In this document: positions 40,368 to 55,771 of the stretch, piece after piece | Layout: every line of letters starts with the position of its first letter | Numbering within the stretch: position 1 is the stretch's first letter | Source of the DNA: Bacteroidaceae bacterium | Lineage (GTDB): Bacteria; Bacteroidota; Bacteroidia; Bacteroidales; Bacteroidaceae | Direction of reading: 5' to 3' | DNA length: 56,691 bases | NCBI GenBank assembly: GCA_024683455.1 | Contig: JAIKYE010000046.1 | Coordinates: 1-56,691, forward strand | The notes under the pieces: generated by a model | What the model was told of the DNA's origin: nothing | The model's database searches: none | What the model saw: only the letters and a program-made list of their open reading frames with translations | Program-made: the position numbers and the translations under genes

Positions 40368-41285
40368 TTATTCGTAATATATTAAGTCATTCTTTTCGTC
40401 TATAAGAACACGGCCTCGGAACATTGAAGGTCCGACAAAACCCAGATACTCTGTAATATTAAAAGCGGTGGTTATGGCAATAGGGATATTTAACACCTTT
40501 TTTTCTCCGATTTTATAGTTGTTTGCATCTAGACAATAAATGCTGGCAGTTATTATATTCCCTTTTTTGTCATCGGCATAAATAATCTTGAATTCTTTCT
40601 CTGACAAGAATTTCTTTACCTCAGGATTTTTGTAAAAAAGATATAACGGCATAGGGTTGCCTAAGTCGAGGATAAACTTACCCGATAAGCGACCATAATG
40701 GCCAAACTTGTCTGACACGAACAATTCTGATTCGAATATCGGTTTGGGATAGTATCCTACAATCTTGAATGATTTCATTTTAGATTTATCTATAGAACTC
40801 TCCCTTACCATATCCAGCATATTCTTCTTGAAATCCAGCTGAATAACGTATGCCGTAGAATCCTTCTCATTTTTCAGACGATGAATAGGAATTGCTATAT
40901 CTGTTTCACTTAGTATTTTATGTTTACCAACTACCCAGATACTTCCTCTGTAGCTTAAATCGCCAATACGTATCTTACCTTTCAGAAGTTGTTTAACCTG
41001 GGTTGTACCTAATTGATTCACAATCTCAGCTGGCGCAGAATCAATCTTTTCAAACTGACATTCATTAAAAAGTCTTTCAAATTCTGATTCCGAGATTAGG
41101 ATTCCGGGGATTCCGGATTCAGCAAGCAATCTTATATTCTCGTGTCCATTTACAGTCGCATCAAAATAATAAAAGCCCTTCTCTTTTGATAATTTAAAAC
41201 TGGTCTGAGCACAAAAACTTGACGAATATAAATACATGCCAAGAAAAAGAAACATGTATTGGATTGTACATCTTTTATGAATCAT
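40368..41285 (-). CDS. Exported retropepsin-like protein with altered active site
   Basis: A 305-residue protein with a probable signal peptide (MFLFLGMYLYSSSFCAQ near residues 11-27). The pattern FYYFDATVNGHENIRLLAES (read in part) and GKFILDLGNPMPLYLF resembles a bacterial aspartyl-protease (retropepsin) duplicate in which DTG/DSG motifs follow a strand. Here the first motif is AESGIPG (Glu in place of Asp) and the second is LDLGNP, so catalysis is doubtful. The late LGFVGPSMFRGRVLID also fits this fold (LGxxF/M). The assignment is by pattern only. Gene spacing suggests cotranscription with its neighbours. Confidence 0.55.
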   Translation of the reverse strand: MIHKRCTIQYMFLFLGMYLYSSSFCAQTSFKLSKEKGFYYFDATVNGHENIRLLAESGIPGILISESEFERLFNECQFEKIDSAPAEIVNQLGTTQVKQLLKGKIRIGDLSYRGSIWVVGKHKILSETDIAIPIHRLKNEKDSTAYVIQLDFKKNMLDMVRESSIDKSKMKSFKIVGYYPKPIFESELFVSDKFGHYGRLSGKFILDLGNPMPLYLFYKNPEVKKFLSEKEFKIIYADDKKGNIITASIYCLDANNYKIGEKKVLNIPIAITTAFNITEYLGFVGPSMFRGRVLIDEKNDLIYYE

Positions 41286-41338: not shown

Positions 41339-42217
41339 CTAATACCATATCTGACGACTATATTTGGATATATAGCTGAATTTTCTTTCAACTACTTTTT
41401 TTATGTGATGGTGATGACGATTCGCAAAAAACAATGTCATTTTAGATTTACCCAGGCCATGGAATTCTGCAAAAGCATAGTGCTCGATTGTAACAGAATC
41501 TGCATCGAAAGTAAATACGGGCTCCAATTTTTTGAATTTTAGGTTTTGTAGAGAGTCAACTACTGCAAAGGTCTCGGCAACATGTCTCTTATACCTTTCT
41601 CCCTTTGCATCTACGAAATTGGGATTAAAATTCTCCGAAAAAAGGTCGTCTTCCCACGATTTCTTTATAAGAGAAATAATTGAGTCCACATCCTCTACAG
41701 ATGTTATTAGGTACGTTTGATTATAATTTGCATCGTTTCTCATTCCAAAAAGAATCGAAGATTTTTCCAACAGATATGCCTGCCAAATACTCATTTTAGT
41801 TCCGGTCAGGGATATCTTACTAAATGGATCTGTAAATGCCACTTGTTCCTTATTGGTAATATAAGGCATATTATTTTTCTTGCATTTTAAATAACGATGA
41901 TACTCCTTGTCGAAATATTCCTCATCTGGGCGATCTTGTTTTTTCTTGCGTACATACAGACGTAAACAAGAACTATCTCTTACTTTTAATGTCCAATACC
42001 GTCTAAAATCCGATAAGATATATTTGTTATTCAGCTTTAACTCTGTTAGCGGAGTTAGCAAAAAAGACAAATCATCTTTCTTCTGCAAGTCCCTTGAATG
42101 CGACTCTGCATTTGCGCAAAAATTATTTTTGACCGCAGTGTATTCCGGCTGTGCAAGGCTGGAAAGATTGATCATTATGAGGCCCAAAAAAATTAATTTT
42201 AGTCTTGGATTCTTCAT
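41339..42217 (-). CDS. Exported protein of unknown function
   Basis: Start taken at 42217 (MKNPRLKLIFLGLIMINLSSLAQ, a signal peptide); an in-frame ATG six codons upstream is possible. The 292-residue mature region is rich in Lys, Tyr and Asp and contains a His run in FANRHHHHIKKVV near the C-terminus. A TonB-like or energy-coupling role cannot be read from it, and I recognise no family. It begins a three-gene group of exported proteins downstream of the terminator at 42261-42324. Confidence 0.6.
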   Translation of the reverse strand: MKNPRLKLIFLGLIMINLSSLAQPEYTAVKNNFCANAESHSRDLQKKDDLSFLLTPLTELKLNNKYILSDFRRYWTLKVRDSSCLRLYVRKKKQDRPDEEYFDKEYHRYLKCKKNNMPYITNKEQVAFTDPFSKISLTGTKMSIWQAYLLEKSSILFGMRNDANYNQTYLITSVEDVDSIISLIKKSWEDDLFSENFNPNFVDAKGERYKRHVAETFAVVDSLQNLKFKKLEPVFTFDADSVTIEHYAFAEFHGLGKSKMTLFFANRHHHHIKKVVERKFSYISKYSRQIWY

Positions 42218-42260
42218 ATAATTATAACGTTTCAATCTAAATATATATTGTATGCTCTCT

Positions 42261-42343: not shown

Positions 42344-43168
42344 TTATCTATGATATTGTATTCCATAGAAATCAAACATATCTTCCCAGTTCATGTCATC
42401 TATATCATTTTGATACTTATAATCTGGGTCATCGGAGTATGATTCTTTTATGCCTGCCCATCTATCAACGAAGTCATCATACCAGTCTCCAATGCCTTCT
42501 TCAAACTTGTTTAGGTCAATTCCATTTTCATCTTCTATAGAACTCAACCAATCCGTAAAATCTTTCATAGAATCTCCTAAGAAATCTGAGTTCTCATCAT
42601 TTCCTGAGATGAAGTCCAGACTGCAGGATTGAAACTCAAGTGGAGCTTGCAAATCAAATTTATCCATGAGGCCTAAATCATATTGATCCAAGTGTCCCAA
42701 TTCATGATTAAGAGATGCTCTGTAATACCATGGTTCCCCAGGATAGGCAGGGTCGTAAGTTAAATATATCTTTCCTTCTTTAGCATTTGTTCGTCCATTA
42801 GTATTGCCTTTACTTGTAAAGAAAATACTTACCTTCCCGCTAAGCTTTCTATATTCGTATAATTGTTGAGCCGTCCCATTCAATGTGTTAATGATGTCTT
42901 CGAGAGAAAAAGGAAATGCTGTATTATCCTGATTTCCTTCATTGTCATCATGATTAGAATCGTGGTCATCCAGATTATTATCATCTCTGTTATCCACATC
43001 TGGATCAAACCCTGGGTCGAAACCAGAGTCGTCGTCTGGTGTAACAATCAGTTCTGGTAAATCTGTGGGGATGCCGTCGTTATAATAACCATCCCCACCC
43101 ATAATGGCCTTACACTCCTTGCTGTCCAATGCAGGAATGGACAACTTTAGAATTTCTAATGTTTTCAT
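42344..43168 (-). CDS. Double-glycine-leader exported protein with HELGH zincin motif
   Basis: A 274-residue protein and likely cargo of the PCAT exporter. Residues 1-25 form a bacteriocin-type leader with hydrophobic spacing and a Gly-Gly cleavage site (KAIMGG, 24-25). The mature part has a PELIVTP motif (38-44), an Asp-rich low-complexity stretch (45-82), a helical segment, and a putative zinc-peptidase motif HELGH (155-159) preceded by ASLN, then an acidic C-terminal half. A third zinc ligand was not identified with confidence. The PCAT peptidase would cut after GG25, giving a product of about 249 residues, large for this route. It could be a secreted metallopeptidase toxin or processing enzyme. 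It is the last gene before the terminator, 52 bases after the TolC-like gene. Confidence 0.75.
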   Translation of the reverse strand: MKTLEILKLSIPALDSKECKAIMGGDGYYNDGIPTDLPELIVTPDDDSGFDPGFDPDVDNRDDNNLDDHDSNHDDNEGNQDNTAFPFSLEDIINTLNGTAQQLYEYRKLSGKVSIFFTSKGNTNGRTNAKEGKIYLTYDPAYPGEPWYYRASLNHELGHLDQYDLGLMDKFDLQAPLEFQSCSLDFISGNDENSDFLGDSMKDFTDWLSSIEDENGIDLNKFEEGIGDWYDDFVDRWAGIKESYSDDPDYKYQNDIDDMNWEDMFDFYGIQYHR

Positions 43169-43210
43169 TGTTAAATGATTTTTTTGTTAGTAAATAAATA
43201 ATAGCTATTG

Positions 43211-43223
43211 TGAGAGACTCTCA
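43211..43223. repeat. Short perfect palindrome upstream of the GG-leader gene
   Basis: TGAGAGACTCTCA, overlapping the stop codon of the TolC-like gene and 42 bases before the GG-leader start codon. It could be a processing or regulatory hairpin that sets apart expression of the cargo gene. Confidence 0.4.
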
Positions 43224-44687
43224 TTCGTGATATAATACGATATTCTGTTCTATGTCATATAGTGCGTAATAACGATATTTGTATACATATGTGTAATACG
43301 ATTTAATTAGAGATAAGTAACTTAGATATGTTTGGCTGTACTGTGATTTAATTCTTATATATTGTTCTACGTTTATTCTCCCCAAATCAACACGTGTCTT
43401 CATGTTTGACATCTGCTTTATCAGCAATTTAAGAGTATGCCTGTATGCATTTATTGATTCTATCATAACATTTACGTTTAACAAATCTCTCGATATGCTA
43501 TGTCGAGCAGAAGACTTATCTAGTTGGTTTTGCTCATATAATTTTTCTAGTTCTAATTGTGCTATTTTATGTTTATAGTTTGCTATATTCCCGTCATAAA
43601 TGGGAACTGAAATAGTAAGAGCGATGTTGCTACTTGATATTCTATCCTTGAAAGTTTCACAGAAATTCTGAAACTGGGTGTTGTATCCTCCGCCCATTTC
43701 AAGCATGAAACTTGGAGCCTTATTCGCTTTTGTTTTTTTTACTTCTATCGTCTGTTGCATTTCTTTAAGTGTGTGAAGCTCGTCATAATTATACTTCATG
43801 CAGTTAGCAACAACATCATTCATATTAAAATAGAGTTGATGAAATGACCGACAACTATCAACAAATTCCACATAAGGTGTGTCTTCTTCTGGAAGACGTA
43901 ACAATTCACTGAATTTTTTGCGTGCAGCGTCTATTTCCACATTATTGTTGTAAATGCTATCACGAATGTATTCAATCTCTGTGTCTCGATAGTCTGATTC
44001 GGATATTCTTCCATCTTTTAACATGTGCCCAGCTTTAATAAAAATATATCTTGATAGTTTTAGATTGTCTCTGGCAACCTCATAGCTTTGTTGTTGAATT
44101 AATAAATCGAAAAAAGCATTAACGACATCGTATTTAATTTTTTCTTGCTCCTGAATAAGTGTAATTCCTTCAACTTTCTTTTCTTGTACATCTTGTCGTT
44201 TTGCCCATTTATACGGATTGTAGCTAAACAGACTTTGGCTATAAGATAGTTTTCCCAAATTAAGGTAGTAGGTATGAGTGTTAAAATTGTTAGTAAAATT
44301 ATCTAAACGACTCAGTCCCATAGAATATTTAAGCGTCCCTCCTGTGAATGGTATCAATTGGCTCACATCAAGACTCAGTGAAGATGTAGCATAGGTTCTG
44401 CTTCTGTATTCATAGCTTCCGTCGTACTGTGAAACAAGACTTATTGACTTGTCATAACTAGGAAGTTTCCCATTTAGAACGATATTGGGTATAATACTAT
44501 GAGCAAAAATCTTATGTTTCATGTTATATATTAATGAATCCTTCTTTAATAACTTGAAAGCATATGTGTCTGAGACAAGATTCAACACTTTTTCTAATGT
44601 ATAGTTTTCTCCTTGTGCGCATAATCCAATCTTAAAAAAGAGTAAAACTAGGATGGTAAGTTTGAATTTACACATACAATAATTCAT
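43221..44687 (-). CDS. TolC-like outer membrane efflux protein
   Basis: The start at 44687 (MNYCMCKFKLTILVLLFFKIGLCAQG) gives a good signal peptide; an upstream in-frame ATG at 44708 is also possible and would overlap the Nudix-ligase gene by 41 bases. The rest is helical with TolC-type marks: YTLEKVLNLVSD at the start, SLSLDVSQLIPFTGG, LDNFTNNFNTHTYYLNLG, NIALTISVPIYDGN, and a C-terminal helix with RVDLGRINVEQYIRIKSQYSQ. As the outer-membrane channel it completes the tripartite export path with the PCAT and HlyD-type proteins of the same operon. Confidence 0.85.
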   Translation of the reverse strand: MNYCMCKFKLTILVLLFFKIGLCAQGENYTLEKVLNLVSDTYAFKLLKKDSLIYNMKHKIFAHSIIPNIVLNGKLPSYDKSISLVSQYDGSYEYRSRTYATSSLSLDVSQLIPFTGGTLKYSMGLSRLDNFTNNFNTHTYYLNLGKLSYSQSLFSYNPYKWAKRQDVQEKKVEGITLIQEQEKIKYDVVNAFFDLLIQQQSYEVARDNLKLSRYIFIKAGHMLKDGRISESDYRDTEIEYIRDSIYNNNVEIDAARKKFSELLRLPEEDTPYVEFVDSCRSFHQLYFNMNDVVANCMKYNYDELHTLKEMQQTIEVKKTKANKAPSFMLEMGGGYNTQFQNFCETFKDRISSSNIALTISVPIYDGNIANYKHKIAQLELEKLYEQNQLDKSSARHSISRDLLNVNVMIESINAYRHTLKLLIKQMSNMKTRVDLGRINVEQYIRIKSQYSQTYLSYLSLIKSYYTYVYKYRYYALYDIEQNIVLYHE

Positions 44688-45783
44688 ATTTTTTTTTATA
44701 GCTTGCAAACTTTATTTTAATTCTGGTTCCATCTTCAAAATATGCCACATATCCTTCTTCATTTTTTTTGTCAATAGAATAAAGCGCATTCCAATCGTTG
44801 AGATCTGAATAGCTACTTACTTTGGGGAAAGAAAGGCCCAATATCTCTTCTGGCAAAATATTTTTCTGTTTGATGTTGTCGTATGCTCCAATCAGAAAAA
44901 GATCCTCTGTACTTCCATAGTCTACGACATGTTTGTCCTTTGGATAAATTATTTCAAAAAAATAGGTGTAGCTCTTGTTCATTTTGCCAATAACATCGGC
45001 ATGTTTCGTGTATAAAATCCTTGTACCATTTAATGCTTGAAGAGTGTTAAATGATCCCCTGGTGGCAATAAATGGAGCGTCTTCAATCCAATATAATATA
45101 CCAAGGGCACCATCTTTTTTTTCGTAAATTCGAAATTTGCATTCTGCTTCAGGAAAGAAATGTTCAAACATTTGGTATTCCTCAAAGAATTTCTTTAATG
45201 GGCGATATTTAATATTATTTCTGTTATCAGTAATTAGTCCACGGCACCATAAAGTGATTTCATCCCACAACTGTGCCTTTTTGCATCGTGATGTATAGTT
45301 ATAGATATAAATATCTTTATCATGATGTTTTTCTTTTGTTACATAGTTATTATAACACAACCAGTTTATTGCTCTTGCAGGAAGTCTGGAAGGGTAAATG
45401 TGAAGTAATACAGACAACTGCGAAAGTTGAAGAAATCTTTCTGCCTCTTCATATTCAAGGAAACCTGCCCATGCAATTTCTTTAGTATCAATTGGACTAA
45501 TATCGGGCATTTTCTCAATTCTGGCTACAAAATATATGATACGTCTTTGAAATCCTGGCAAATTCACATTCATTAAATAGGGGGGGGGCTCAATAAGATG
45601 AGATGGAATTCTTATGCCAGTTTCTTCATAGGTTTCTCTAATTGCTGCATCAAAAGGCGACTCGTGTAGATTTATAAGCCCTTTGGGTATTGATAAATGG
45701 CATCCATCATGGTCTCCCGATTGCTTAACCAGCAATATCATATTCTTGCAAAGAACAACAAGCCCTGCGGAAACATGTTTCAT
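44668..45783 (-). CDS. Nudix hydrolase fused to Rnl1-like RNA ligase domain
   Basis: A 371-residue fusion. Residues 1-135 are a Nudix domain: SIPKG, G35, E41, and RETYEETGI (49-57) complete the Nudix box. Residues 150-371 resemble T4 RNA ligase 1: WCRGLITDNRNN (179-190), LKKFF, nucleotidyl-transfer motif I EKKDG with Lys222 as candidate nucleophile, motif III FFEIIYP and VDYG, motif IV EEGYVAYFEDG (342-352) and motif V IKIKF. Both active sites look intact. C9 at 45580-45588 encodes Pro66-68 within the Nudix domain and could slip. Proposed activity: hydrolysis of a nucleoside-diphosphate-linked group (such as an RNA 5' cap) plus RNA end joining; this is inference. It starts 6 bases after the previous ligase gene. 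Confidence 0.85.
   Translation of the reverse strand: MKHVSAGLVVLCKNMILLVKQSGDHDGCHLSIPKGLINLHESPFDAAIRETYEETGIRIPSHLIEPPPYLMNVNLPGFQRRIIYFVARIEKMPDISPIDTKEIAWAGFLEYEEAERFLQLSQLSVLLHIYPSRLPARAINWLCYNNYVTKEKHHDKDIYIYNYTSRCKKAQLWDEITLWCRGLITDNRNNIKYRPLKKFFEEYQMFEHFFPEAECKFRIYEKKDGALGILYWIEDAPFIATRGSFNTLQALNGTRILYTKHADVIGKMNKSYTYFFEIIYPKDKHVVDYGSTEDLFLIGAYDNIKQKNILPEEILGLSFPKVSSYSDLNDWNALYSIDKKNEEGYVAYFEDGTRIKIKFASYKKKYELLYV
45580..45588 (-). repeat. Homopolymeric C9 tract inside the Nudix-ligase gene
   Basis: Nine consecutive C on the coding strand (G on the plus strand) encode Pro66-Pro68. It is the longest G/C homopolymer I noticed in the window; a one-base slip would truncate the Nudix domain and remove the ligase domain. 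Confidence 0.85.
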
Positions 45784-45789
45784 CTTCTA

Positions 45790-46893
45790 TTATTTTAGAT
45801 AGCGATTCTTCCAATCAATTACTATTGATTCGTATATGTGCGGATGCTTGAACCTGTATTCGATATCAAAGACCTCTTTCGTTTTTGGTTTAAGCGCCCC
45901 CCAATCTCTTATTTCATTTACATCGTGGTTAGACAGGATGTCATTCTTGACTTTTCTTAGCCAACTTTCAAATCCCATCAAATAGAAATAGCTTGGAATA
46001 CTATTTCTTAATGAAAGAAGATTATGGTCACCAGAGGACATTTCACACCAAACATCGAAATTGGATACGATACGTTCTTTTATACCCATTTTATTTCTCA
46101 GTTCATGCTGTTTACAGTAGATCTTTTTTTCACAAGCAATTATAGAATCAAGTTGTGAATGTACCTCTTGATACCATGGGAATTTTAATTTGATCATTTC
46201 TCCATTTTCGAAATACAACACAAAACCCTCTTGATTTGGAAGATTAAGAGAAGCCAAATCGTTTAGATTAGTGATATGACCATATTGAGATGTATAATCA
46301 TATGCTTTCATGAATCCAATATCTGGAAGTTCCATCGGCTTGCATGTTTGTTTGTCAATCATCCCAATCAAGTACAAGTCGCGAGTGTCTCCATAATCAA
46401 TTAAGACATTTGATTCCGGATAAACCGCTTCAAAAATATACGTGTATCTTTTATCTAATTTGCGGATATCCTTTAAATGTTTTTCGTATAAAATTTTAGT
46501 TGCTTCCAATGCCTTGGGATTCGTAAATGAGCGCTGAGTGGCAAGATAGGGTTTGTCATTAAGCCAGTATAAGGTACACATGGTTCCGTCAACTTTCTCC
46601 AAGATTCTGAATTTGCCTTGCGGCATCCTCATAATCTGATTATCGTTTAGCAATATCATGTTTTTATTTAAATACTGTTTAAATGTCCAAAACTTTTTAA
46701 AGGGATGTTCTACGATATTGCCATCGCCATCCACAATCATTCCGCGACAATGTATGGATATATCATCCCAGATGCGTGGTTTGTCATTATCTTGAAAATA
46801 TCCATAGATGTATAGATTGGCATTAGGATGTTTCTCAACACAGACTATAGTCTTATCTACGTATTCGTTTAATGTTTCGATGTTAAATTTCAT
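45790..46893 (-). CDS. T4 Rnl1-like RNA ligase
   Basis: A 367-residue protein with the T4 RNA ligase 1 order of motifs: HCRGMIVDGDGN (48-59), HPFKKFW (63-69), motif I EKVDG with Lys100 as nucleophile (T4 Rnl1 uses Lys99), motif III YIFEAVYP and IDYGDTRDLYLIG, motif IV QEGFVLYFENG and motif V MIKLKFPWY, followed by a helical C-terminal region (about 250-367). Rnl1 enzymes join 5'-phosphate and 3'-OH RNA ends with ATP; in T4, Rnl1 repairs tRNA cut by PrrC. No nuclease partner was seen here. Its start overlaps the 413-residue gene by 11 bases, so expression is coupled to the export genes. Confidence 0.88.
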   Translation of the reverse strand: MKFNIETLNEYVDKTIVCVEKHPNANLYIYGYFQDNDKPRIWDDISIHCRGMIVDGDGNIVEHPFKKFWTFKQYLNKNMILLNDNQIMRMPQGKFRILEKVDGTMCTLYWLNDKPYLATQRSFTNPKALEATKILYEKHLKDIRKLDKRYTYIFEAVYPESNVLIDYGDTRDLYLIGMIDKQTCKPMELPDIGFMKAYDYTSQYGHITNLNDLASLNLPNQEGFVLYFENGEMIKLKFPWYQEVHSQLDSIIACEKKIYCKQHELRNKMGIKERIVSNFDVWCEMSSGDHNLLSLRNSIPSYFYLMGFESWLRKVKNDILSNHDVNEIRDWGALKPKTKEVFDIEYRFKHPHIYESIVIDWKNRYLK

Positions 46894-48124
46894 TGCTTAT
46901 AAACTTTACACAATAAGGAATGTATGATAAATAAAAGGCGGAAATATCAAAAGAATGAAACAAATGTTTTGTAATTTCTTCAAAGAGTAAATCACGATGA
47001 TCATTTTTCTTACAAATTATCTTGAGTTTCTCAAGCTTGTTGATATAATTAAGATAATCCGTTTTACAATTCTCAAACGAATCCCATTCAGAAATCATAT
47101 CGGTATAATTAGAAAAAAGCATTGAAGCATTTTCTAGACACAAAGAATGATATTCCTTTGCAATCTTGTTACCCAGAACTCCCATAATTCTATGACTAAT
47201 AAGATATCTGACATTGTCAGACATGGATATCCAAGAATATTTTTGGTATATTTTGTTGTTCGTAAGAGTGAAATCAGGGAAGTCGTGATATAATATCTTG
47301 CCATTTAGGATATATACATATATCATTTCTGTAATAATTTTATCAGAGGATGTTGATTCTGATGTTCCCGAAAGGACAATACTCTGAAAATCAGAGATCA
47401 TTTCTATTATGTCCATCTGCACCTGATGACTAAAAAAATCGGGAGTATAGTTGATCTCATAATATGGAATTCTTATGTTTTGACATAATAATTCAGTTGA
47501 ATGGCTATATAGCAATTTTTGCATTGCTATCAAAGCATCTCTACTTTCCTTGACATTGTTAAAATACAAAGAAAAAACGGCATCCTTTCTATACGTAGTA
47601 TTATAGAACTGGAGATCTGTTACTGCTTTATCGAGGAAATTTTTTGCATGACTTTGAATTGGTATTAGTACATTAAAAATAAAGTTCAGGTCGCTCGAAA
47701 TATTATAAAACCTAATAGAGAATTTATTGTCATTTAACTTCACTTTTTTTTCGCTGCTATCCCAAGCATATGATATTTGAGGGGCCTTTTCTAAATCATT
47801 ATGTAACAAAATTGGCTCTAGTGATTGAAAAATATCACGGCTTATATCTAAATCATCCTTCAGGCATAATGTAGATGTAAACAAGGAGGGAACAAGAATA
47901 TCCCGAGACAGAATTAAAGACATACATGTCTCAAGATTTAGTTCATATAAACAAATTATATATCCCTCTTCTTCCCATTGTTTTCTTCTCATGCGAACAT
48001 TATTGTCGTTTACTCCAACCAACGTCATTTCCTTATTTTCTTTGTTCTGCTTAAGAAACAATGACTGCTGAAGAAAGAATGATTTTTTTAAGCAGATGTC
48101 TATCTCCTGGCTGATTTTCTTCAT
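46883..48124 (-). CDS. Unassigned 413-residue protein, weak HopA1-like pattern
   Basis: No firm family. There is no signal peptide or membrane segment. The stretch SIRFYNISSDLNFIFNVLIP followed about 40 residues later by YRKDAVFSLYFNN resembles, to my eye, the RFYW...Y-R-DAAVLY pattern of HopA1-like proteins, which accompany kinases in class V lanthipeptide pathways. If right, this would point to peptide modification, but the match is weak. It starts 4 bases after the HlyD-type gene and overlaps the RNA ligase gene by 11 bases, so it belongs to the operon. The C-terminal part (300-413) is mostly helical. Confidence 0.6.
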   Translation of the reverse strand: MKKISQEIDICLKKSFFLQQSLFLKQNKENKEMTLVGVNDNNVRMRRKQWEEEGYIICLYELNLETCMSLILSRDILVPSLFTSTLCLKDDLDISRDIFQSLEPILLHNDLEKAPQISYAWDSSEKKVKLNDNKFSIRFYNISSDLNFIFNVLIPIQSHAKNFLDKAVTDLQFYNTTYRKDAVFSLYFNNVKESRDALIAMQKLLYSHSTELLCQNIRIPYYEINYTPDFFSHQVQMDIIEMISDFQSIVLSGTSESTSSDKIITEMIYVYILNGKILYHDFPDFTLTNNKIYQKYSWISMSDNVRYLISHRIMGVLGNKIAKEYHSLCLENASMLFSNYTDMISEWDSFENCKTDYLNYINKLEKLKIICKKNDHRDLLFEEITKHLFHSFDISAFYLSYIPYCVKFISNEI

Positions 48125-48128
48125 TTAG

Positions 48129-49502
48129 TTATAATTTTACATTTCCTATATTTGGTGCGACTTCATTTCTCTGAGAATCTTCTTTTTCTCTAGTGACATT
48201 TCCCCCTTTTTTACTTGACGATGTGATTGCCTTAAGTTTATTAAAAAGCAAAAGAATGAGTTTCTTCTTGGCTGTTATTATTTCAGCCTGACCATACATT
48301 GATTCTGCGAAGGAGAGCATATGGTTATTGTCACTTTTTAGGCCGTTAGGCATATCAATATATATAAGATACCCTTTGTCAACCGTATTCATTGATATAC
48401 TTTTGACAAAACCTTGCAATGATCCATACTCCTGATAAGGGTATAACATCATGTCCAAATTTACAGGGTTACCAATGGATACATCCCCAGATCCTTCTGA
48501 GGATAAAAATGCAACTGCATAATATGAATTATTCTTATAAATGATATTATATATAGGTTCACCTAATGTTACGAAGGATCCTTCGGAAATAATGCTGGCA
48601 TACTCTGCTATACATTCATCAGGAGCAATAAAGACATATGCTTTTTCCCAGTTCTTAATTTGTATGACTAATCTATGGAAGGCATCGTTCAGAGAAACTC
48701 TGGCTTCTTCCATGGCGTTGTTAATTCCATCTATAATTTGGTTTCTCTTAATCAAATTCTGAACGGTCGAACTATGAGTCAGGTTTATCTCCTGTTCTAA
48801 AGTGAGAATCTTATTCCTTGCTTCCAAATATTGAATGTTCGATCTATCAAACTCATCTTTAGTAATGATTTCGTTATCATATAGAATGGAATCGGATTTT
48901 GTATAAAACTCTCGTATCTCTCTTTCGTTATTATAGGAGTTTAACAGTTCCTCGCGATTAGTTATAGATTTCATGTTTGCATCAATCTGTTTGTTAATCA
49001 AAGATAAAGTGTGTTCATAATCATTATGGCCTTCTAATAATTGGTGATATTTAATAAACGCCACCTTAAATGCAAAAAAATCAGTTTCAATGTCTCCCAA
49101 TAGATATGTACTTCGAAGCAACTCTTCTATATTTGCCCCCCTTTCCCATATTTTGGCATTACTAATCCAATGCTTTAGAGCCAAAACGTCTTTATAATCT
49201 GCGGGATTTTCAATTACTGCCAGATATTGTCCCTTATAACATTTTAGCGCGGATTTTTTCTCAATAATATGTATTTTGCCATTTGTCTGGGCATTAAGCG
49301 TTATAGGAGGATTGGTTGAGATAACTTTTGCCTCCGCATAAACTCTTTCTGGGATTTCAATTATAAATCCTAAAACAAAGATAGTCAACACAAATACAAC
49401 TAGTCCATATACAATATATGATGTATACCGATCAGGCATTCTTTGGGCTACATCATAAAACTCTTCTGTATGTTCTGTTTGTTTATTCATTTTCAGCATC
49501 AA
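48129..49502 (-). CDS. HlyD-type periplasmic adaptor of the exporter
   Basis: A 457-residue membrane fusion protein: cytoplasmic N-terminus, one membrane segment (YGLVVFVLTIFVLGFIIEI, about 33-51), a lipoyl-like half (PITLNAQTNGKIHIIEKKS, YLAVIENPADY), a long helical hairpin (about 120-290), the second lipoyl/beta part (ISEGSFVTLGEPIYNII) and a beta-barrel region (SIGNPVNLDMMLYPYQEYGS). It links the PCAT exporter to the TolC-like channel. Its start overlaps the end of the ABC gene by 20 bases, indicating coupled translation. Confidence 0.85.
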   Translation of the reverse strand: MMLKMNKQTEHTEEFYDVAQRMPDRYTSYIVYGLVVFVLTIFVLGFIIEIPERVYAEAKVISTNPPITLNAQTNGKIHIIEKKSALKCYKGQYLAVIENPADYKDVLALKHWISNAKIWERGANIEELLRSTYLLGDIETDFFAFKVAFIKYHQLLEGHNDYEHTLSLINKQIDANMKSITNREELLNSYNNEREIREFYTKSDSILYDNEIITKDEFDRSNIQYLEARNKILTLEQEINLTHSSTVQNLIKRNQIIDGINNAMEEARVSLNDAFHRLVIQIKNWEKAYVFIAPDECIAEYASIISEGSFVTLGEPIYNIIYKNNSYYAVAFLSSEGSGDVSIGNPVNLDMMLYPYQEYGSLQGFVKSISMNTVDKGYLIYIDMPNGLKSDNNHMLSFAESMYGQAEIITAKKKLILLLFNKLKAITSSSKKGGNVTREKEDSQRNEVAPNIGNVKL

Positions 49503-51744
49503 CTAATGAAACAAAACTATTTTCATTGATAGTGACTTCTTGGTTCTTGAATAGTTCGTAATACACGCCTTTCTTCTTGTATAATGTATTATGCGTACCC
49601 ACCTCTGCGATACTTCCATTTTTGAAAACAATTGTTAAATCTGAACGTTTTACAGATGACAATCGATGCGCAACAAGGATTGTCGTTGGATGATATGGGA
49701 GATTTTTAATAGCCTCAATGATTGAAAGTTCACAGTTTGAATCTAGAGAACTGGTAAGCTCATCCAGAAACAGATAGTCGGGATTATTATATATAGCTCT
49801 TGCAAAAAGAATCCTTTGTTTCTGACCCTCACTCACGCCTTTCCCGTTTTCTTGAATCCTTGTCTCGTATCCCATAGGCCTTCTTTCAATGTCAGATTTT
49901 ATGTTAGCTATATCCACGACTTGTTGCAAACGTTCTGCACTATATTCTCGACCGAATACAATATTATCTAAAATTGTTTCATTAAGTAACCCACTATCTT
50001 GGGAAAGCAAACCGATCTTATTTCTCCACTCCTCTATGGGGATAGAAGTGAGTTTTGTGTTTCCTATCAATATACTGCCAGAATTAGGTGCATATAATCC
50101 GGAAAGTAATTTAATTATAGTGGACTTCCCACAACCGCTGTCTCCAACTATTGCAATCATTTTACCCTTAGGGATAATGCATGATATGTTTTGCAAAACA
50201 TAATCATCATTGGCACTATATTTAAAAAAGATATTCTTAAGGATTAGAGGAGCAGAGTAATCAATGAGTTCCGCCTTGAAATTTCCTACACTATTATATT
50301 CAGCGGGTTTGCTGATGATTTCCTGTATACGTGCATAACTGATATTAGCCAATTGAACTGATACAATAAACTGAATGACTCCTTCCATAGGAGTTGACAA
50401 TTGACCTATTATGTACTGCACAGCTATTAGCATACCCATAGACATTTCTCCCCCAGTAACGGAAATTGCAGCTAAATAGATTAGAATCAGATCTTTAGAT
50501 GAATTAATTAGGGATGAACCGAAATTCTGCAACTGATCAACATTTAGTAGTTTAATTCTGGTCTTAAATAATTTAATCTGTACTTTTTCCCACTGCCAGC
50601 GTTTAAAAATACCATAATTGAAACTTTTTATGTCGCCCATATTGGAAAGCATTTCTATCCACTGACTTTGATTTTGGGCAAGAAAAGTAAAATACCTAAT
50701 GTCTATCTTTTTTCTAATATTCCAAAAGAACAGCACCCAGCCACAATATATTGCGCTCCCAATCAAGAAAGTCCATAAAATCAAAGTGTTGTAATAAAAT
50801 AGTATTATGGCAAATACGATAAGTTGTAATACAGATAGAATAAAGTTAAAACCGCTACTCATTATGAATGACTCCAAGCGGTCATAGTCATTGTTTCGTT
50901 GCATGATATCACCCATCAAGCGAGTCTCAAAAAAACTTAACGGAAGCCTGAACATCTTAGTGATAAAATCTGATTGCATGGAGAGTTTGGTCCGAACGGA
51001 GAAATGAGTCGTAAATAATTGTTGAAGCCAAGAACTCATGGACTTACTAACGGTAAGCGCGAGACTTGCTATTAGCATTATGGTGATAAAGTCATAATCC
51101 TTTGAAGGAATACCTATATCTATAATATTTTGCGTAATGATTGGGAACAACAAATTCAAAGCTGTTATCACCAATAAAAGAAGAAATATCTTTGTAATAG
51201 AACTAATTGATGATTTAGTGTAGTCCCAGATAAATTTCAGAACATCTAAGACGGATTGTTGCTGCCTTGGCACCGAAACTCTCGTGAAAAAATCGCCTGT
51301 TGGTTCAGAGATGATACAAACGCCCCTTTTCTTTATCTTGTTACCATCATCAAACTTGTAAGTTAGCCAACCTTCCGCAAATTCTTTTATTGAGTATTTG
51401 CAAAGACCACACTGTGGGTCTGAAACAAAGATTTTCTTACTTGTAATTTTATATACAACAATAAAATGATGATTTTTCCAATGAACAACGCAAGGCAAAG
51501 GTACTTCGTTTCTAAACTTCCAATACGAAAGTCTGTATGCTTGGCTTCTGAGTTTAACTTTCTCGGACGCTTTAATAAAGTCATAAACCGATATGCCCTC
51601 TTTTTTTATACCACATATCTCTCGTAGATATTCCATATCATAAAAAGATTTGTAATATTTGCATATTATTTGTAGACAAGCAGGACCACAGTCCTTGCTC
51701 TCTAGTTGGCGTACTGACGGGAATTTGGGTTTAAATAATGACAT
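49483..51744 (-). CDS. Peptidase-containing ABC transporter (PCAT, C39 family)
   Basis: A 753-residue exporter for GG-leader substrates. Residues 1-150 are a C39 protease: Q13 and catalytic C19 in QLESKDCGPACLQ, His in HHFIVVYK (92-93) and Asp in VSDP (D109), so leader cleavage should be active. Residues 165-470 carry the six-helix membrane domain. The ATPase domain has Walker A GDSGCGKST, signature GVSEGQKQR, Walker B YLFLDELTSSLD and the H-loop VAHRLSSVK. It cuts the leader after Gly-Gly and moves the cargo across the inner membrane with ATP. The start codon overlaps the NTase stop by one base (TAATG). Confidence 0.95.
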   Translation of the reverse strand: MSLFKPKFPSVRQLESKDCGPACLQIICKYYKSFYDMEYLREICGIKKEGISVYDFIKASEKVKLRSQAYRLSYWKFRNEVPLPCVVHWKNHHFIVVYKITSKKIFVSDPQCGLCKYSIKEFAEGWLTYKFDDGNKIKKRGVCIISEPTGDFFTRVSVPRQQQSVLDVLKFIWDYTKSSISSITKIFLLLLVITALNLLFPIITQNIIDIGIPSKDYDFITIMLIASLALTVSKSMSSWLQQLFTTHFSVRTKLSMQSDFITKMFRLPLSFFETRLMGDIMQRNNDYDRLESFIMSSGFNFILSVLQLIVFAIILFYYNTLILWTFLIGSAIYCGWVLFFWNIRKKIDIRYFTFLAQNQSQWIEMLSNMGDIKSFNYGIFKRWQWEKVQIKLFKTRIKLLNVDQLQNFGSSLINSSKDLILIYLAAISVTGGEMSMGMLIAVQYIIGQLSTPMEGVIQFIVSVQLANISYARIQEIISKPAEYNSVGNFKAELIDYSAPLILKNIFFKYSANDDYVLQNISCIIPKGKMIAIVGDSGCGKSTIIKLLSGLYAPNSGSILIGNTKLTSIPIEEWRNKIGLLSQDSGLLNETILDNIVFGREYSAERLQQVVDIANIKSDIERRPMGYETRIQENGKGVSEGQKQRILFARAIYNNPDYLFLDELTSSLDSNCELSIIEAIKNLPYHPTTILVAHRLSSVKRSDLTIVFKNGSIAEVGTHNTLYKKKGVYYELFKNQEVTINENSFVSLVDAENE

Positions 51745-53252
51745 TAAGATAAAAATTTCGAGCAGTTATAACAAATGATCAATTTCTGATAACTATCCAA
51801 CGAAAAAACAGATAATACATGATTGAAAATGTTATAAATAATGCTGTGAGAGTTCACTTTGAAAAGAGCAGCATTGTATGGCATTTTTTTACTGTTTGCT
51901 GAAACATGTACAATGCTATGACACATTCTGGTGATTTCTTTCGTATCAATAATCTCTGATTTAAACACCTTTTCTATAAAAAGGTGCATTTCATTTTTTG
52001 ATTTTGCATAAACCCCATCAAGGATGGGCATAATATTATTATGTCTTCCTGCTAGCATGGCATGAGATGCTCGACCGTTGATATTAATTGCATCAGGCAG
52101 ATATAGCATGATAATAGTATGCATAAAGACATCTAATTGCTGACCAAGAATTCGAAAAAGAGAAAAGCACATGATATAACCCAGTTCTACCCCTCTATTA
52201 GCACAATCTGATTCGAGCATGAGATTAAAACATTCTATAAATAATCCGTTTATTTCATCGCGATACTGTTTATCGCCAAAGATATTTAGATGAAAAAAAA
52301 TGGTATTGTATGGGAAAATGATTTTAGGCATAATATGGAACACATCCTTCGCAAGGAGATTATTTATATTGCTTAACAAGCAATTTCTCTTGTATTTGTC
52401 CCCAATGATAGCAATGTAAGTTCCTCTAGCATATATATTGCAATTACCAACATAAAATGCATAAACTTGAATTCCAGGTATATTATTATTCAGGCTGCAT
52501 AATATATTCTTTACAGTCTCTTCATAGATTCTTTCGTCTGGAACGAAAATCATAGAATCATTATCTGGAGATTTTTCAAGTAAGGTGTCCGAGGATGAAT
52601 AATTACAATGTAGCTCGCAAATACTATTAAGTACACTCTTTATATTGTTTGTGTATTTGTCCACGTCATGTGAAATAAGGAAATCATGTAAAGCCTCATT
52701 AAGAAATTGATATTGACTAGGATGAGATCTCATTATTTTGTCTAAAAATCTGCATTGAGGTGCTAATAGTCCCACGAGTATTTGTTGCGTAAGAATATGA
52801 ACATTTAAGGTGACTCCTAACGCATTCTCATTCTCACCTAAATATATTAGATCCTCAGATATGTCGTGCACCTTATTCATTAAAGTTCTTTCGGACAAAG
52901 AAGGCTCAATACCATTTAATAGTTCTTTTATTGATTGGAGTATACCCTCTTGATCTAACAAGATATGACCTTTCTTAAAAACAGAAAAGAACACGAACTC
53001 TTCTTTTATGAAATCATCGCATATTAGTTCGAACACCTTATTTATCGGGAATACTATAAGATGATATAATTCCTTATTCTTTTGGAATTTTGTCGTTGTC
53101 TGACGGTTGGCAAGTTTAGATATAACAACCAAATCCACATCAGAGTTTTTATTCTGTTTATTTTCCGCATAACTACCTGATAGCATTATGCCAACAACAT
53201 CTTCCTTGTTTATTGTATTATATACAATTTTTATTAAATAGTCATTATCCAC
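51744..53252 (-). CDS. MNT-like nucleotidyltransferase-domain protein (502 aa)
   Basis: First gene of the export operon. The N-terminal domain has the pol-beta superfamily motif GSYAENKQNKNSDVDLVV (26-43) with G26, S27 and the metal-binding pair D38/D40. A third carboxylate was not seen: the expected strand reads LYHLIVFP. The remaining 400 residues are helical and of unknown family. MNT-like enzymes can adenylylate proteins, RNA or small molecules; here the target could be the cargo, tRNA or another RNA, given the two RNA ligases. No HEPN partner gene was found next to it. Confidence 0.75.
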   Translation of the reverse strand: MDNDYLIKIVYNTINKEDVVGIMLSGSYAENKQNKNSDVDLVVISKLANRQTTTKFQKNKELYHLIVFPINKVFELICDDFIKEEFVFFSVFKKGHILLDQEGILQSIKELLNGIEPSLSERTLMNKVHDISEDLIYLGENENALGVTLNVHILTQQILVGLLAPQCRFLDKIMRSHPSQYQFLNEALHDFLISHDVDKYTNNIKSVLNSICELHCNYSSSDTLLEKSPDNDSMIFVPDERIYEETVKNILCSLNNNIPGIQVYAFYVGNCNIYARGTYIAIIGDKYKRNCLLSNINNLLAKDVFHIMPKIIFPYNTIFFHLNIFGDKQYRDEINGLFIECFNLMLESDCANRGVELGYIMCFSLFRILGQQLDVFMHTIIMLYLPDAININGRASHAMLAGRHNNIMPILDGVYAKSKNEMHLFIEKVFKSEIIDTKEITRMCHSIVHVSANSKKMPYNAALFKVNSHSIIYNIFNHVLSVFSLDSYQKLIICYNCSKFLS

Positions 53253-53485: not shown

Positions 53486-54232
53486 ATGAATGTACATAAT
53501 CTTCTTTCTAACAACTCTTCATGTAGAGAAAACATAACCACTTCTTGTAATATTAATACCCTGGTGGGGGGGGTAAGTTCTGCTGCTGCTCTGAGCAATA
53601 CTAGCAGCTTGATAGTAGACTTTGATAATCATCAAGTGCTCTATAGAACTCCGAAGTTAATATATCTGGACAGAGCAACCCCCAAGGACAAGTTAAGAGA
53701 TTGCCCCAATCCGTATTGGACATATATTCCTGAGGAAATACTGGAGTTTCTCCTTCAACTCAAACAAAGTAGTCTCCACCTTAGACATAATATGGCACCC
53801 GAAGAATACAAAACACATGTCTGCATAACAGATTTTCCTATCGTAATTAGGGGCAAGGAGTTTTATGTCAGTCAGAAATTTACACCGTTGGTTGTTGACA
53901 CCAAAGGAATTATTAGGATAGGGCTTTTTACCATCACTCCATCTATTCGTAAACATATAGAAAGCACTATTATTACGGAATCTGGGAAGTGCTTCTCGTA
54001 CAATACTGGAATGAAGAAATATGAGCAGGCAGATTTCTCAACGATTCTTACAGAAACGGAGAAGCGTATATTGAAATCTTCTGAGATGGGGATGAACAAT
54101 GAGGAGATTGCAGATTACCATAATGTAAGCATATCTGCTGTAAAAGCTAATATAACACGCATATTAAAGAAACTTGCAGTTAAGAAAGTTCAAGAGGCCG
54201 TGACCATTGCCAATAGTTATCGAATTATATAA
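53486..54232 (+). CDS. LuxR-type helix-turn-helix regulator with PAS-like sensor part
   Basis: A 248-residue regulator transcribed away from the export operon. The C-terminal GerE/LuxR HTH runs from TETEKRILKSSEMGMNNEEI to ISAVKANITRILKKL (about 185-235). The central region (about 110-165) with KFTPLVVDTKGIIRIGLFTI resembles the PAS-like sensor part of many Bacteroidales LuxR proteins. A G8 tract (53566-53573) encodes part of LVGGVSS near residue 28: losing one G gives an immediate TAA and gaining one gives a stop about 13 codons later, so slippage would turn the gene off. It likely controls the export operon. Confidence 0.8.
   Translation: MNVHNLLSNNSSCRENITTSCNINTLVGGVSSAAALSNTSSLIVDFDNHQVLYRTPKLIYLDRATPKDKLRDCPNPYWTYIPEEILEFLLQLKQSSLHLRHNMAPEEYKTHVCITDFPIVIRGKEFYVSQKFTPLVVDTKGIIRIGLFTITPSIRKHIESTIITESGKCFSYNTGMKKYEQADFSTILTETEKRILKSSEMGMNNEEIADYHNVSISAVKANITRILKKLAVKKVQEAVTIANSYRII
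53566..53573 (+). repeat. Homopolymeric G8 tract inside the regulator gene
   Basis: Eight G residues in GTGGGGGGGGTAAG near codon 28. The gene is in frame only at this length (or multiples of three away), so the tract is a candidate contingency locus. Confidence 0.8.
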
Positions 54233-54444: not shown

Positions 54445-54566
54445 CGCAAAACAAGCGGAGATATACATCGATTGGCAAAAAATACCGATGGTTATCGGTT
54501 TCTGGGTGTATGAGGTTTTTCTCCAAACCTCATACAAACCTCATGGAAACCTCATAAAAACCTCAT
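54445..54566. repeat. Left inverted-repeat arm with 11-bp iterons
   Basis: Order: CGCAAAA (54445), core GAGATATACATCGATTGGC (54458-54476), 33-base spacer, ATGAGGTTT (54510), then four AAACCTCAT copies at 54525, 54536, 54547 and 54558 (11-bp steps). The last copy overlaps the stop codon of the vapE-like gene. It mirrors the right arm. Confidence 0.9.
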
Positions 54567-55771
54567 GCAACCTTCAGGGGAACCACCTTGTAATAAGCAA
54601 CTCGACAACGATCAGTATGTTCATATCCCAATTCCTTCATGGCATGTCCTAAATGGATTCTTGCGCTATGGTCAATCTTCAAACTGGGATATTCACCTTG
54701 AATCATCTCAAGCATCTGCCTTCCGCTGATGGTCTTTGCATTGTCACCTTCTTTAGGCTTACGAAAGCAAACTGAAATCATATCCGCTAGATCCTTTTTC
54801 TCTGCAAATTCGATGTTCAGTTCCTGAATTCTGGCCACCTCCTCGTTGTTGAACCAGTAGGGTGCCTTCTGCTCTCGCAATTCATACAGCACCTGAGCAT
54901 ATAGCTGCTCGTAGTTGATTTCCCCTACATTATCTATATACTGGCCTTGGGGAATCTGGATGCAGATATAGCGTCTGCTACCTGTGGCATCCGTCAGCGG
55001 ATGAGGATTGTTGGTGGTCGCCACGAAAGAGGCAAACCGGGGCCTGTCTTCCTGCGCACATCCGAAGATGGGGCGGCCATTTACCTTACTCTTGGAGAGT
55101 GTCTGTTTCAGGGCAGCATGCTGGCTGGGGCGGATAGCATCCAATTCATCAAGGTTCACCAAGAGGTTATTGGTAAGAGCCATCTCCTTGTCAAACTTGT
55201 TGCTTAGGTTCAGATGATCCAGATAGTACTGGCGCAGATGCTGGGGAAGCATCCTGCGCAGGAAGGTCGTCTTACCACAGCCTTGCGAGCCAATCAGCGT
55301 GGGTACACATTCGTTTCCGTGAAGGGTATCCATCTGCAACCAATGGGCCACTGTGGATCTGAGCCAGACAGAAAGGAAAGACAATTGCTCCGAGCTGACT
55401 CCTGGCAAACGGCTGAACAGCTCAGCCACATGATTCTGTCCGTCCCAAGCAGGAAGACCGTTCAGGAACTCCTCGATGGGGTTGTAGTTGGGCACTTCCT
55501 CAGAATGGATGTGCTCCACAATGTCCGTCTTGGGATTACCCTCAGCAATCTCCAGACGTTTGGCCCTCAGGATGATGCTGTTCAGGGCTTCCTGGGTCAG
55601 CGTACGATAGTCGGATGTCTGACTCTCATCCTTCTTGGTGGCAAACTCAATCTTGCCGTTCAGCACGTTTCTGCGAAACAGATAGTTCGAAACAAGGAAC
55701 TCCTCAACAGCGAGTATTCCTTCCAGAGAAGCGTTCATAGCCTCTCCGTTAATAAGTAGTTCTTTACTCAT
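54563..55771 (-). CDS. VapE/VirE-like P-loop ATPase (DUF3874-type C-terminus)
   Basis: A 402-residue protein of the virulence-associated E family. Residues 1-95 form a regulatory helical part; the ATPase region begins NPIEEFLNGLPAWDGQNHV. Walker A is GSQGCGKTTF (161-170), Walker B NLLVNLDELDAI (about 206-217) and the sensor is ATTNNPHPLTDATGSRRYI. The C-terminus (about 330-402) resembles the small DUF3874 domain common in Bacteroidales. Family members relate to phage and satellite helicases that act in replication. The gene sits alone between long inverted repeats, suggesting that it serves replication or mobility of that unit. Base composition is higher in GC than in the adjoining export island. 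Confidence 0.88.
   Translation of the reverse strand: MSKELLINGEAMNASLEGILAVEEFLVSNYLFRRNVLNGKIEFATKKDESQTSDYRTLTQEALNSIILRAKRLEIAEGNPKTDIVEHIHSEEVPNYNPIEEFLNGLPAWDGQNHVAELFSRLPGVSSEQLSFLSVWLRSTVAHWLQMDTLHGNECVPTLIGSQGCGKTTFLRRMLPQHLRQYYLDHLNLSNKFDKEMALTNNLLVNLDELDAIRPSQHAALKQTLSKSKVNGRPIFGCAQEDRPRFASFVATTNNPHPLTDATGSRRYICIQIPQGQYIDNVGEINYEQLYAQVLYELREQKAPYWFNNEEVARIQELNIEFAEKKDLADMISVCFRKPKEGDNAKTISGRQMLEMIQGEYPSLKIDHSARIHLGHAMKELGYEHTDRCRVAYYKVVPLKVA

Follow-up and report, generated by a model that had tools for sequence, protein, structure and literature searches.

In a 56,691-nucleotide stretch of DNA from a Bacteroidaceae bacterium (GCA_024683455.1, contig JAIKYE010000046.1, positions 1-56,691; hereafter the window), eight adjacent genes (42344-53252, minus strand) encode a peptide exporter and its cargo together with two RNA ligases, a Nudix domain and a nucleotidyltransferase (NTase). 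We tentatively propose that this is a conserved export operon for products like RiPPs (ribosomally synthesized and post-translationally modified peptides). The NTase, which is predicted to be fused to a LanB-C-type domain, would attach nucleotides to the precursor; the ligases and the Nudix domain would extend or trim them; and a PCAT (a C39 peptidase joined to an ATP-binding cassette (ABC) exporter) would export the product. We consider this possible rather than probable. The precursor is our candidate substrate because two proteins of the cassette are predicted to have the folds of peptide-modifying enzymes and because sister loci encode RiPP enzymes. Below, L-numbers are compared loci and G-numbers are genomes; the window is contig C46 of its own assembly (G000).

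Genes and domains of the operon

The sequence-only reading described a packed leftward operon of eight genes, and the list of open reading frames (ORFs), Pfam, NCBIfam and motifs bear this out. The ORFs encode 502, 753, 457, 413, 367, 371, 495 and 274 amino acids, and the junctions between neighbours are overlaps (1, 11, 20 or 41 bases) or gaps of 4 or 6 bases, apart from the final gap, which measures 52 bases. The block is AT-rich (32 to 35% G+C, versus 43 to 49% in the flanks). We scanned ten proteins of the window with Pfam; their NCBIfam matches all fall under the models' own cut-offs.

The first ligase, lig1 (45790..46893; 367 amino acids), matches RNA_lig_T4_1 (1.3e-12) and has the motifs KVDG (at the catalytic Lys100), EGFV and KLKF. 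The second, lig2, is the latter half of a 371-residue protein (44668..45783) whose first 135 or so residues are a Nudix domain (NUDIX, 3.8e-13), with the Nudix box starting at residue 35. Its motifs are KKDG (at Lys222), EGYV and KIKF, and both catalytic lysines are where the sequence-only reading placed them. This half resembles T4 RnlA-type ligases (NCBIfam, 1.4e-8). Motif V (KIKF) begins at residue 356 of 371, so the protein stops no more than 16 residues later, which makes lig2 a minimal catalytic domain. A profile of 38 lig1-type sequences matches T4 Rnl1 (2c5u) at 5e-14 over the nucleotidyltransferase domain. Furthermore, nine residues (R50, K100, D102, G103, E155, E222, G223, K235 and K237) are all kept in 45 of 46 sampled ligases, the sole exception being the truncated ligase of L018, so the hallmarks of the T4 Rnl1 type (motifs I, KxDG; IV, EGxV; and V, KxK; plus the upstream Arg) are present. 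The Nudix domain and lig2 are fused in the window, L010-L014 and L021-L024, and are separate adjacent genes in L015 and L019, a case of natural gene fusion. Some phage homologues are annotated as "RNA ligase and tail fiber protein attachment catalyst," which hints at protein-linked roles in the Rnl1 family.

The NTase (51744..53252; 502 amino acids) has two parts. Residues 1-225 (52578-53252) are a nucleotidyltransferase of the ANT/MntA type (Pfam NTP_transf_2, 1.1e-7), with both the MNT/ANT fold and the motif GSX10DXD, which begins at residue 26. Residues 230-502 (51747-52565) have a predicted LanB-elimination/pyridine-synthase fold, according to an AlphaFold2 model (pLDDT 82, pTM 0.80), Foldseek and VIA-align. 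By eye, the alignment does not show the catalytic HxRxR and ExxRYGG stretches of Lant_dehydr_C in the window's NTase, and Pfam is also blank here, while the true LanB_C of L016 does hold both. Also by eye, the strand after DXD lacks a clear acid in the window's NTase (compare D71 of MntA) and has Asp in L016 and L019, and the spacing of GSX10DXD is off by one in L021-L023. KNTase-type enzymes use a different base. The NCBIfam match to HalB in the window is weak (18.4 bits, versus a cut-off of 190). The 413-residue protein (46883..48124), for which Pfam gives no match above cut-off, is predicted to be a degenerate sibling of the NTase; by eye, it has no GSX10DXD, and its residues 178-413 have a predicted TbtD/PbtD-like fold. 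Structure prediction, which the sequence-only reading had suggested as a check, thus gave the LanB-elimination/pyridine-synthase fold for both proteins.

The PCAT (49483..51744; 753 amino acids) matches Peptidase_C39 (1.3e-33), ABC_membrane and ABC_tran and carries the motif DCGPAC from residue 18. It is accompanied by a HlyD-type adaptor (48129..49502; 457 amino acids; TIGR01843, 4e-24; not in Pfam above cut-off) and a TolC-type outer-membrane channel (43221..44708; OEP, 1e-21), whose length of 495 amino acids is an upper value, as it begins with TTG and a later start is possible. The cargo (42344..43168; 274 amino acids) has a leader (residues 1-25; 43094-43168) with Gly-Gly (GG) at 24-25, followed by DGYYNDG and an acidic linker. 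With the C39 Cys motif and a GG-leader substrate, the window has what defines PCAT export. The cargo also has a zincin-like motif, HELGH, at residue 155 (42692-42706); Pfam finds no family above cut-off, and similarity to the metallopeptidase family DUF6782 is below cut-off (0.056; 2.4e-4 for a cargo of L010).

Recurrence and rarity of the cassette

We found 118 proteins that are homologous to lig1 and aligned 37 of them with it. A genome-wide scan gave 105 relatives, and we took the best 80 (L010-L089): L010-L024 score at least 239 bits and L025-L089 at most 191 bits. The window, L010-L024 and L101 (from G034) make up 17 lig1-type loci. The sequence-only reading had proposed counting how often the ligases and the PCAT occur together, and 15 of the 17 have a PCAT or its ABC half near lig1; the other two are L018, with a truncated ligase, and L024, on a contig that starts at the ligase. 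A general link between RNA ligases and PCATs is ruled out, as only 1 of the 65 loci with stand-alone-type ligases has a C39 match (L070); another four of these loci (L025-L089, some of them short) have weak generic ABC matches. Chance or mis-annotation is ruled out by the recurrence in other species. Conversely, the NTase, its sibling, lig1 and lig2 are absent (at E 1e-5) from all 21 ligase-free PCAT control loci (L102 and L133-L152), some of which are ended by contig ends and some of which have a radical SAM enzyme. The case that would have told against the sequence-only reading, namely export operons that are otherwise identical and lack the ligases, was not seen: the nearest ligase-free PCATs (L102 and L144) are without the whole cassette.

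The order NTase, PCAT, HlyD, 413-like protein, lig1, Nudix-lig2, TolC is kept in L010-L014, with cargos at differing places; these records are from Alistipes, Bacteroidales and Prevotellaceae, plus one labelled Lachnospiraceae. Variants are found in Chryseobacterium, Flavobacterium, Tenacibaculum and Phaeodactylibacter. Across the 17 loci, the NTase is present in 12, the sibling in 10 and lig2 in 12, and in all 12 of the latter a Nudix domain is fused or adjacent to lig2. We assigned the divergent members from profile comparisons and from their position; their scores in the cassette-gene searches are partly self-matches (their own sequences were among the queries). With the matched sequence left out of the profile, NTase probabilities are 99.4 for L016, 99.3 for L019, 98.9 for L020 and 98.8 for L021-L023, and the matches of L019 and L021-L023 span mainly the N-terminal half. 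For the siblings, the probabilities are 93.7 (L014) and 81.7 (L021-L023) against the 413-residue profile and 83.8 (L101) against the NTase profile. The E-values from hhalign are for single comparisons and are lenient. Five loci lack lig2: L016, L020, L101, L017 and L018, the last two of which look decayed. A calcineurin-like metallophosphoesterase (L016 and L020) or a P-loop kinase (L101) takes the place of Nudix-lig2 in the other three, as though this role were open to more than one kind of end-processing enzyme.

The distribution of the cassette is rare and patchy. Copies occur in 1 of 399 genomes of the family (the window's own, a 2.4 Mb assembly that is 83% complete and whose only lig1 matches are the operon's two ligases) and in 4 of 173 genomes of the genus of G655. 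At the level of the order, 5 of 393 genomes have copies, of which the window's own and G034's are of the export type, and those of G170, G242 and G263 show no PCAT; for the phylum, it is 12 of 395, and the window's own and G655's score as the export type. Segatella bryantii encodes a ligase that is 62% identical to lig1, Prevotella histicola has an NTase homologue at 46%, and the ligases found on plasmids and in phages are all distant, with less than 60% identity. The NTase profile has a full-length match among the 393 order-level genomes only in the window's own; 27 others match within the first 106 model positions only, as expected for small stand-alone NTases. The NTase fusion was not seen without lig1 in these 393 genomes (three candidates were scored per genome, and the sibling of L101 was not recovered). 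Ligases of this Bacteroidota-type family also lie on contigs labelled Lachnospiraceae (L010), Limnohabitans (L028) and Klebsiella pneumoniae (L089), from metagenome-assembled genomes; these are probably mis-binned contigs.

In the ligase tree, supported branches set apart three groups: the lig1 proteins (17), the lig2 proteins (12, including long branches) and a sample of 17 stand-alone ligases. The ligase-associated PCATs form two supported clades, A (window, L010-L014, L017 and L021-L023) and B (L015, L016, L019, L020 and L101), and the ligase-free PCATs of L102 and L144 are sisters of clade A. The cassette was therefore acquired at least twice or lost one or more times. L102 (G000:C70:12000-31000) is a second PCAT operon in the window's own genome, with TolC, HlyD, PCAT, a short LanC-like protein (PF05147), a 419-residue protein that is glycosyltransferase-like by eye, and a 336-residue precursor with GG and a GQDNY repeat; we noticed no LanB in it. 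The exporter of L017 is truncated at its N terminus. The exporters of L019 (2669-4789) and L020 (7861-9963) have an N-terminal domain without the C39 DCG motif, and they adjoin precursors without a plain GG site.

Several sister loci contain known RiPP enzymes. L016 has LanB_N, LanB_C and LanC with two Cys-rich GG precursors; L015 has LanC, Nudix and lig2 as separate genes with three Cys-rich precursors; L019 has a radical SAM/SPASM enzyme, and L020 has its homologue. In these four loci, then, lig1 occurs together with LanB/LanC, LanC or a radical SAM enzyme. The ten scanned proteins of the window include neither LanB_N nor LanC (Pfam), the marks of a class I lanthipeptide cluster. The cargos of clade A are larger, with a GG leader, an acidic linker (D+E are 23 to 40% of the first 60 residues) and variable domains, and we infer a resemblance to polymorphic toxins. 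HExxH motifs are found in the cargos of the window, L010 (one of them) and L021-L023, and the other cargo of L010 (and, weakly, that of L013) contains a C39-like peptidase. The cargo of L014 (690-1340) has the same leader and acidic linker, followed by DUF6973 (4e-26). In Pfam, then, three of nine protein cargos are peptidase-like (one weakly), one has DUF6973 and five match nothing convincing.

We also compared 18 precursors from ligase-containing loci with 8 controls. These sets contain related sequences and were picked by hand, as two automatic GG rules missed most clade A cargos and admitted non-precursors. A Tyr lies 1 to 4 residues past GG in 14 of the 18 hand-picked case precursors (the exceptions are from L016 and L024) and in none of the 8 controls. 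The 18 do not include a GG-leader ORF of L021 that lacks this tyrosine (12595-12795), an incomplete second copy in L022, a second ORF of L011 without a leader, or the precursors of L019 and L020, which have no GG. From the controls we dropped rows that resemble parts of other proteins or signal peptides, including two rows of L144 with Tyr at +3. The precursor of L020 has Tyr two residues past GC or AC, and that of L019 has no close Tyr. Tyr near GG may be a lead to the target of modification and is not a test of it.

What the enzymes may do

Our proposal starts from what was read directly: the gene order, the intact catalytic motifs of both ligases, the Nudix box and the NTase, the recurrence with PCATs and the combination of lig1 with RiPP enzymes. 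To this it adds the LanB-C fold predicted by AlphaFold2 and structure searches for the NTase and the 413-residue protein; we infer all of the chemistry. The NTase would put a nucleoside monophosphate (NMP), or a short chain of them, on a side-chain hydroxyl of the precursor. NTases with this motif transfer AMP to hydroxyl groups of proteins: MntA adds three AMPs to a tyrosine of HepT (PMC7641770), and HalB carries poly-dA adducts (PMC13275509). In clade A, the tyrosine 1 to 4 residues past the GG site is the candidate target. The 413-residue sibling may aid binding of the leader or core. Rnl1 requires a nucleotide acceptor with a 3'-OH and a 5'-phosphate donor. An NMP or oligo-NMP on the cargo would be such an acceptor, onto whose 3'-OH lig1 would seal a 5'-phosphate nucleotide with ATP, and the Nudix domain could supply 5'-monophosphate ends or clear abortive adenylates. 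After extension or trimming, the PCAT would cut off the leader and export the product.

A more specific variant, which we think quite unlikely, is that the operon makes and exports covalent protein-RNA conjugates, with an RNA-tagged peptidase-like protein released via PCAT/HlyD/TolC. The NTase would prime a tyrosine at the cargo's new N terminus with one or a few NMPs; the Nudix domain would turn capped or triphosphate RNA into 5'-phosphorylated RNA, which lig1 would join to the 3'-OH; and lig2 and the Nudix domain would proofread the junction. Each enzyme would then keep to the known activity of its family.

The precursor of L102, from the same genome, is Tyr-rich further in, which weakens the Tyr content of the linker as a sign. 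The ligases and Nudix domain, with the metallophosphoesterase (L016 and L020) and P-loop kinase (L101) of relatives, are the usual parts of RNA end healing. We also considered that the NTase, Nudix domain and two ligases might mend cellular RNA that is damaged by the cargo toxin or by rivals, similar to one suggestion of the sequence-only reading. The ligases retain the Rnl1 motifs, and PMC9503650 names ligases together with nucleotidyltransferases in phage tRNA repair. However, the RiPP-enzyme fold predicted for the NTase and the 413-residue protein, the small Cys-rich precursors of L015 and L016, and the separate clade of the stand-alone ligases speak against RNA repair. None of the nine protein cargos matches a nuclease family in Pfam, which is modest evidence as five have no convincing family. 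Also, no 5'-kinase or 3'-phosphatase partner was found among the ten window proteins (Pfam), and among the compared loci only L016, L020 and L101 have a phosphoesterase or kinase. These findings weaken the case for repair, which we consider unlikely. The other suggestion, that the exported protein is modified, is favoured because the folds predicted for the NTase and the 413-residue protein are those of peptide-modifying enzymes and because relatives carry LanB, LanC or radical SAM enzymes; neither suggestion is proved.

The peptide might instead be modified without RNA being joined to it. MccB adenylates microcin C, and the ligase-fold enzymes could be RNA-free AMP transferases or peptide ligases that act on the precursor, with the Nudix domain as eraser. 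This would suit a lig2 that is a minimal catalytic domain and a fusion of writer to eraser, but it leaves the NTase unexplained, and we know of no member of the ligase superfamily that uses a carboxylate or amine acceptor; we doubt it strongly. Slightly less likely still, the ligases and NTase could produce or repair the cofactor, a tRNA or small RNA, that is consumed in a LanB/PEARL-like reaction of the operon, by which the peptide gains an amino acid and not a nucleotide. LanB-family enzymes need aminoacyl-tRNA, and the PDB titles for NisB and MibB say tRNA-dependent. But no LanB_N is among the scanned window proteins (Pfam), and the fold here is that of the elimination half, not the tRNA-using half. 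Least likely, in our view, is a route to dehydroamino acids beside the Glu-tRNA and kinase routes, in which the NTase nucleotidylates Ser/Thr and the LanB-C-like half eliminates NMP. In its favour are the joining of an activation domain to an elimination-domain fold and the presence of LanC beside lig1 in L015 and L016. However, L016 already has LanB; by eye, the NTase does not retain the FFxRY...HxRxR and YxxExxRYGG of true LanB_C; in clade A, Ser and Thr account for just 2 to 8% of the core's first 60 residues; and the ligases would have no task.

Genomic setting and relation to known systems

A divergent LuxR-type regulator (53486..54232, plus strand; GerE, 5.4e-9) probably controls the operon, and a homologue adjoins the genome's second PCAT locus (L102, 6014-6787). 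Next to the cargo is a 298-residue protein (41339..42235, minus strand) with no convincing Pfam family; from its position, it is a possible immunity protein. Beyond it is an exported-looking protein of 305 residues (40368..41285, minus strand), which has no Pfam family, looks retropepsin-like by eye and has a homologue (223 bits) downstream of the L010 cargos. Upstream of the NTase, both the window (54563-55771) and L012 (123-1334) encode a VapE-like protein (PF05272); with the AT-rich block, this is perhaps a common insertion hot spot or a mobile element.

Each family in the operon is known singly. The ligases resemble the T4 Rnl1 family in lig1's profile match and the nine kept residues, but they are in an export operon, in clades apart from the stand-alone ligases, with lig2 fused or adjacent to Nudix. 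The fold predicted for the 413-residue protein and for the C-terminal part of the NTase (residues 230-502) recalls class I lanthipeptide (LanB/LanC) and thiopeptide (TbtD/PbtD) enzymes, and the relative L016 has true LanB and LanC. In the window, though, this domain is fused to a nucleotidyltransferase rather than following a glutamylation domain, and the LanB_C catalytic stretches are not kept. MntA/HepT and Hailong HalB act in toxin neutralisation or phage defence, whereas our NTase belongs to an export operon and carries an additional domain. PCAT/HlyD/TolC bacteriocin operons, including the NHLM type, share the C39 Cys motif, GG leader, adaptor and channel, but in clade A the cargo is a larger protein, in which an acidic linker leads to a variable C-terminal domain, and the nucleotide enzymes are extra. 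PsmN of pseudomycoidin is likewise a nucleotidyltransferase of a RiPP cluster. Lasso-peptide clusters with a nucleotidyltransferase (PMC13289728) have other precursors and partners.

In agreement with the sequence-only reading, our search of the literature on RNA ligases with RiPP, bacteriocin, lanthipeptide, PCAT, Nudix or Bacteroid found no description of the cassette in titles or the openings of abstracts; the 2016 RNA-repair survey of Burroughs and Aravind lies outside that search and could mention such ligases. A search for Bacteroid PCAT RiPPs gave no account of it either, and we found no report of nucleotide decoration of exported proteins for bacterial secretion. Within the literature searched, three things are new: the combination, the predicted fusion of NTase to LanB-C and the clades of exporter-bound ligases.

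If our proposal is correct, then the operon represents a new class of post-translational modification on exported peptides or proteins. Rnl1-type ligases would gain a protein substrate, the LanB-fold toolkit would gain nucleotide donors, and enzymes for joining nucleic acid to protein would be on offer. The protein-RNA variant, if true, would make the operon the first system to secrete covalent protein-RNA hybrids. Chryseobacterium and Flavobacterium are culturable carriers, and the proposal can therefore be tested by mass spectrometry.
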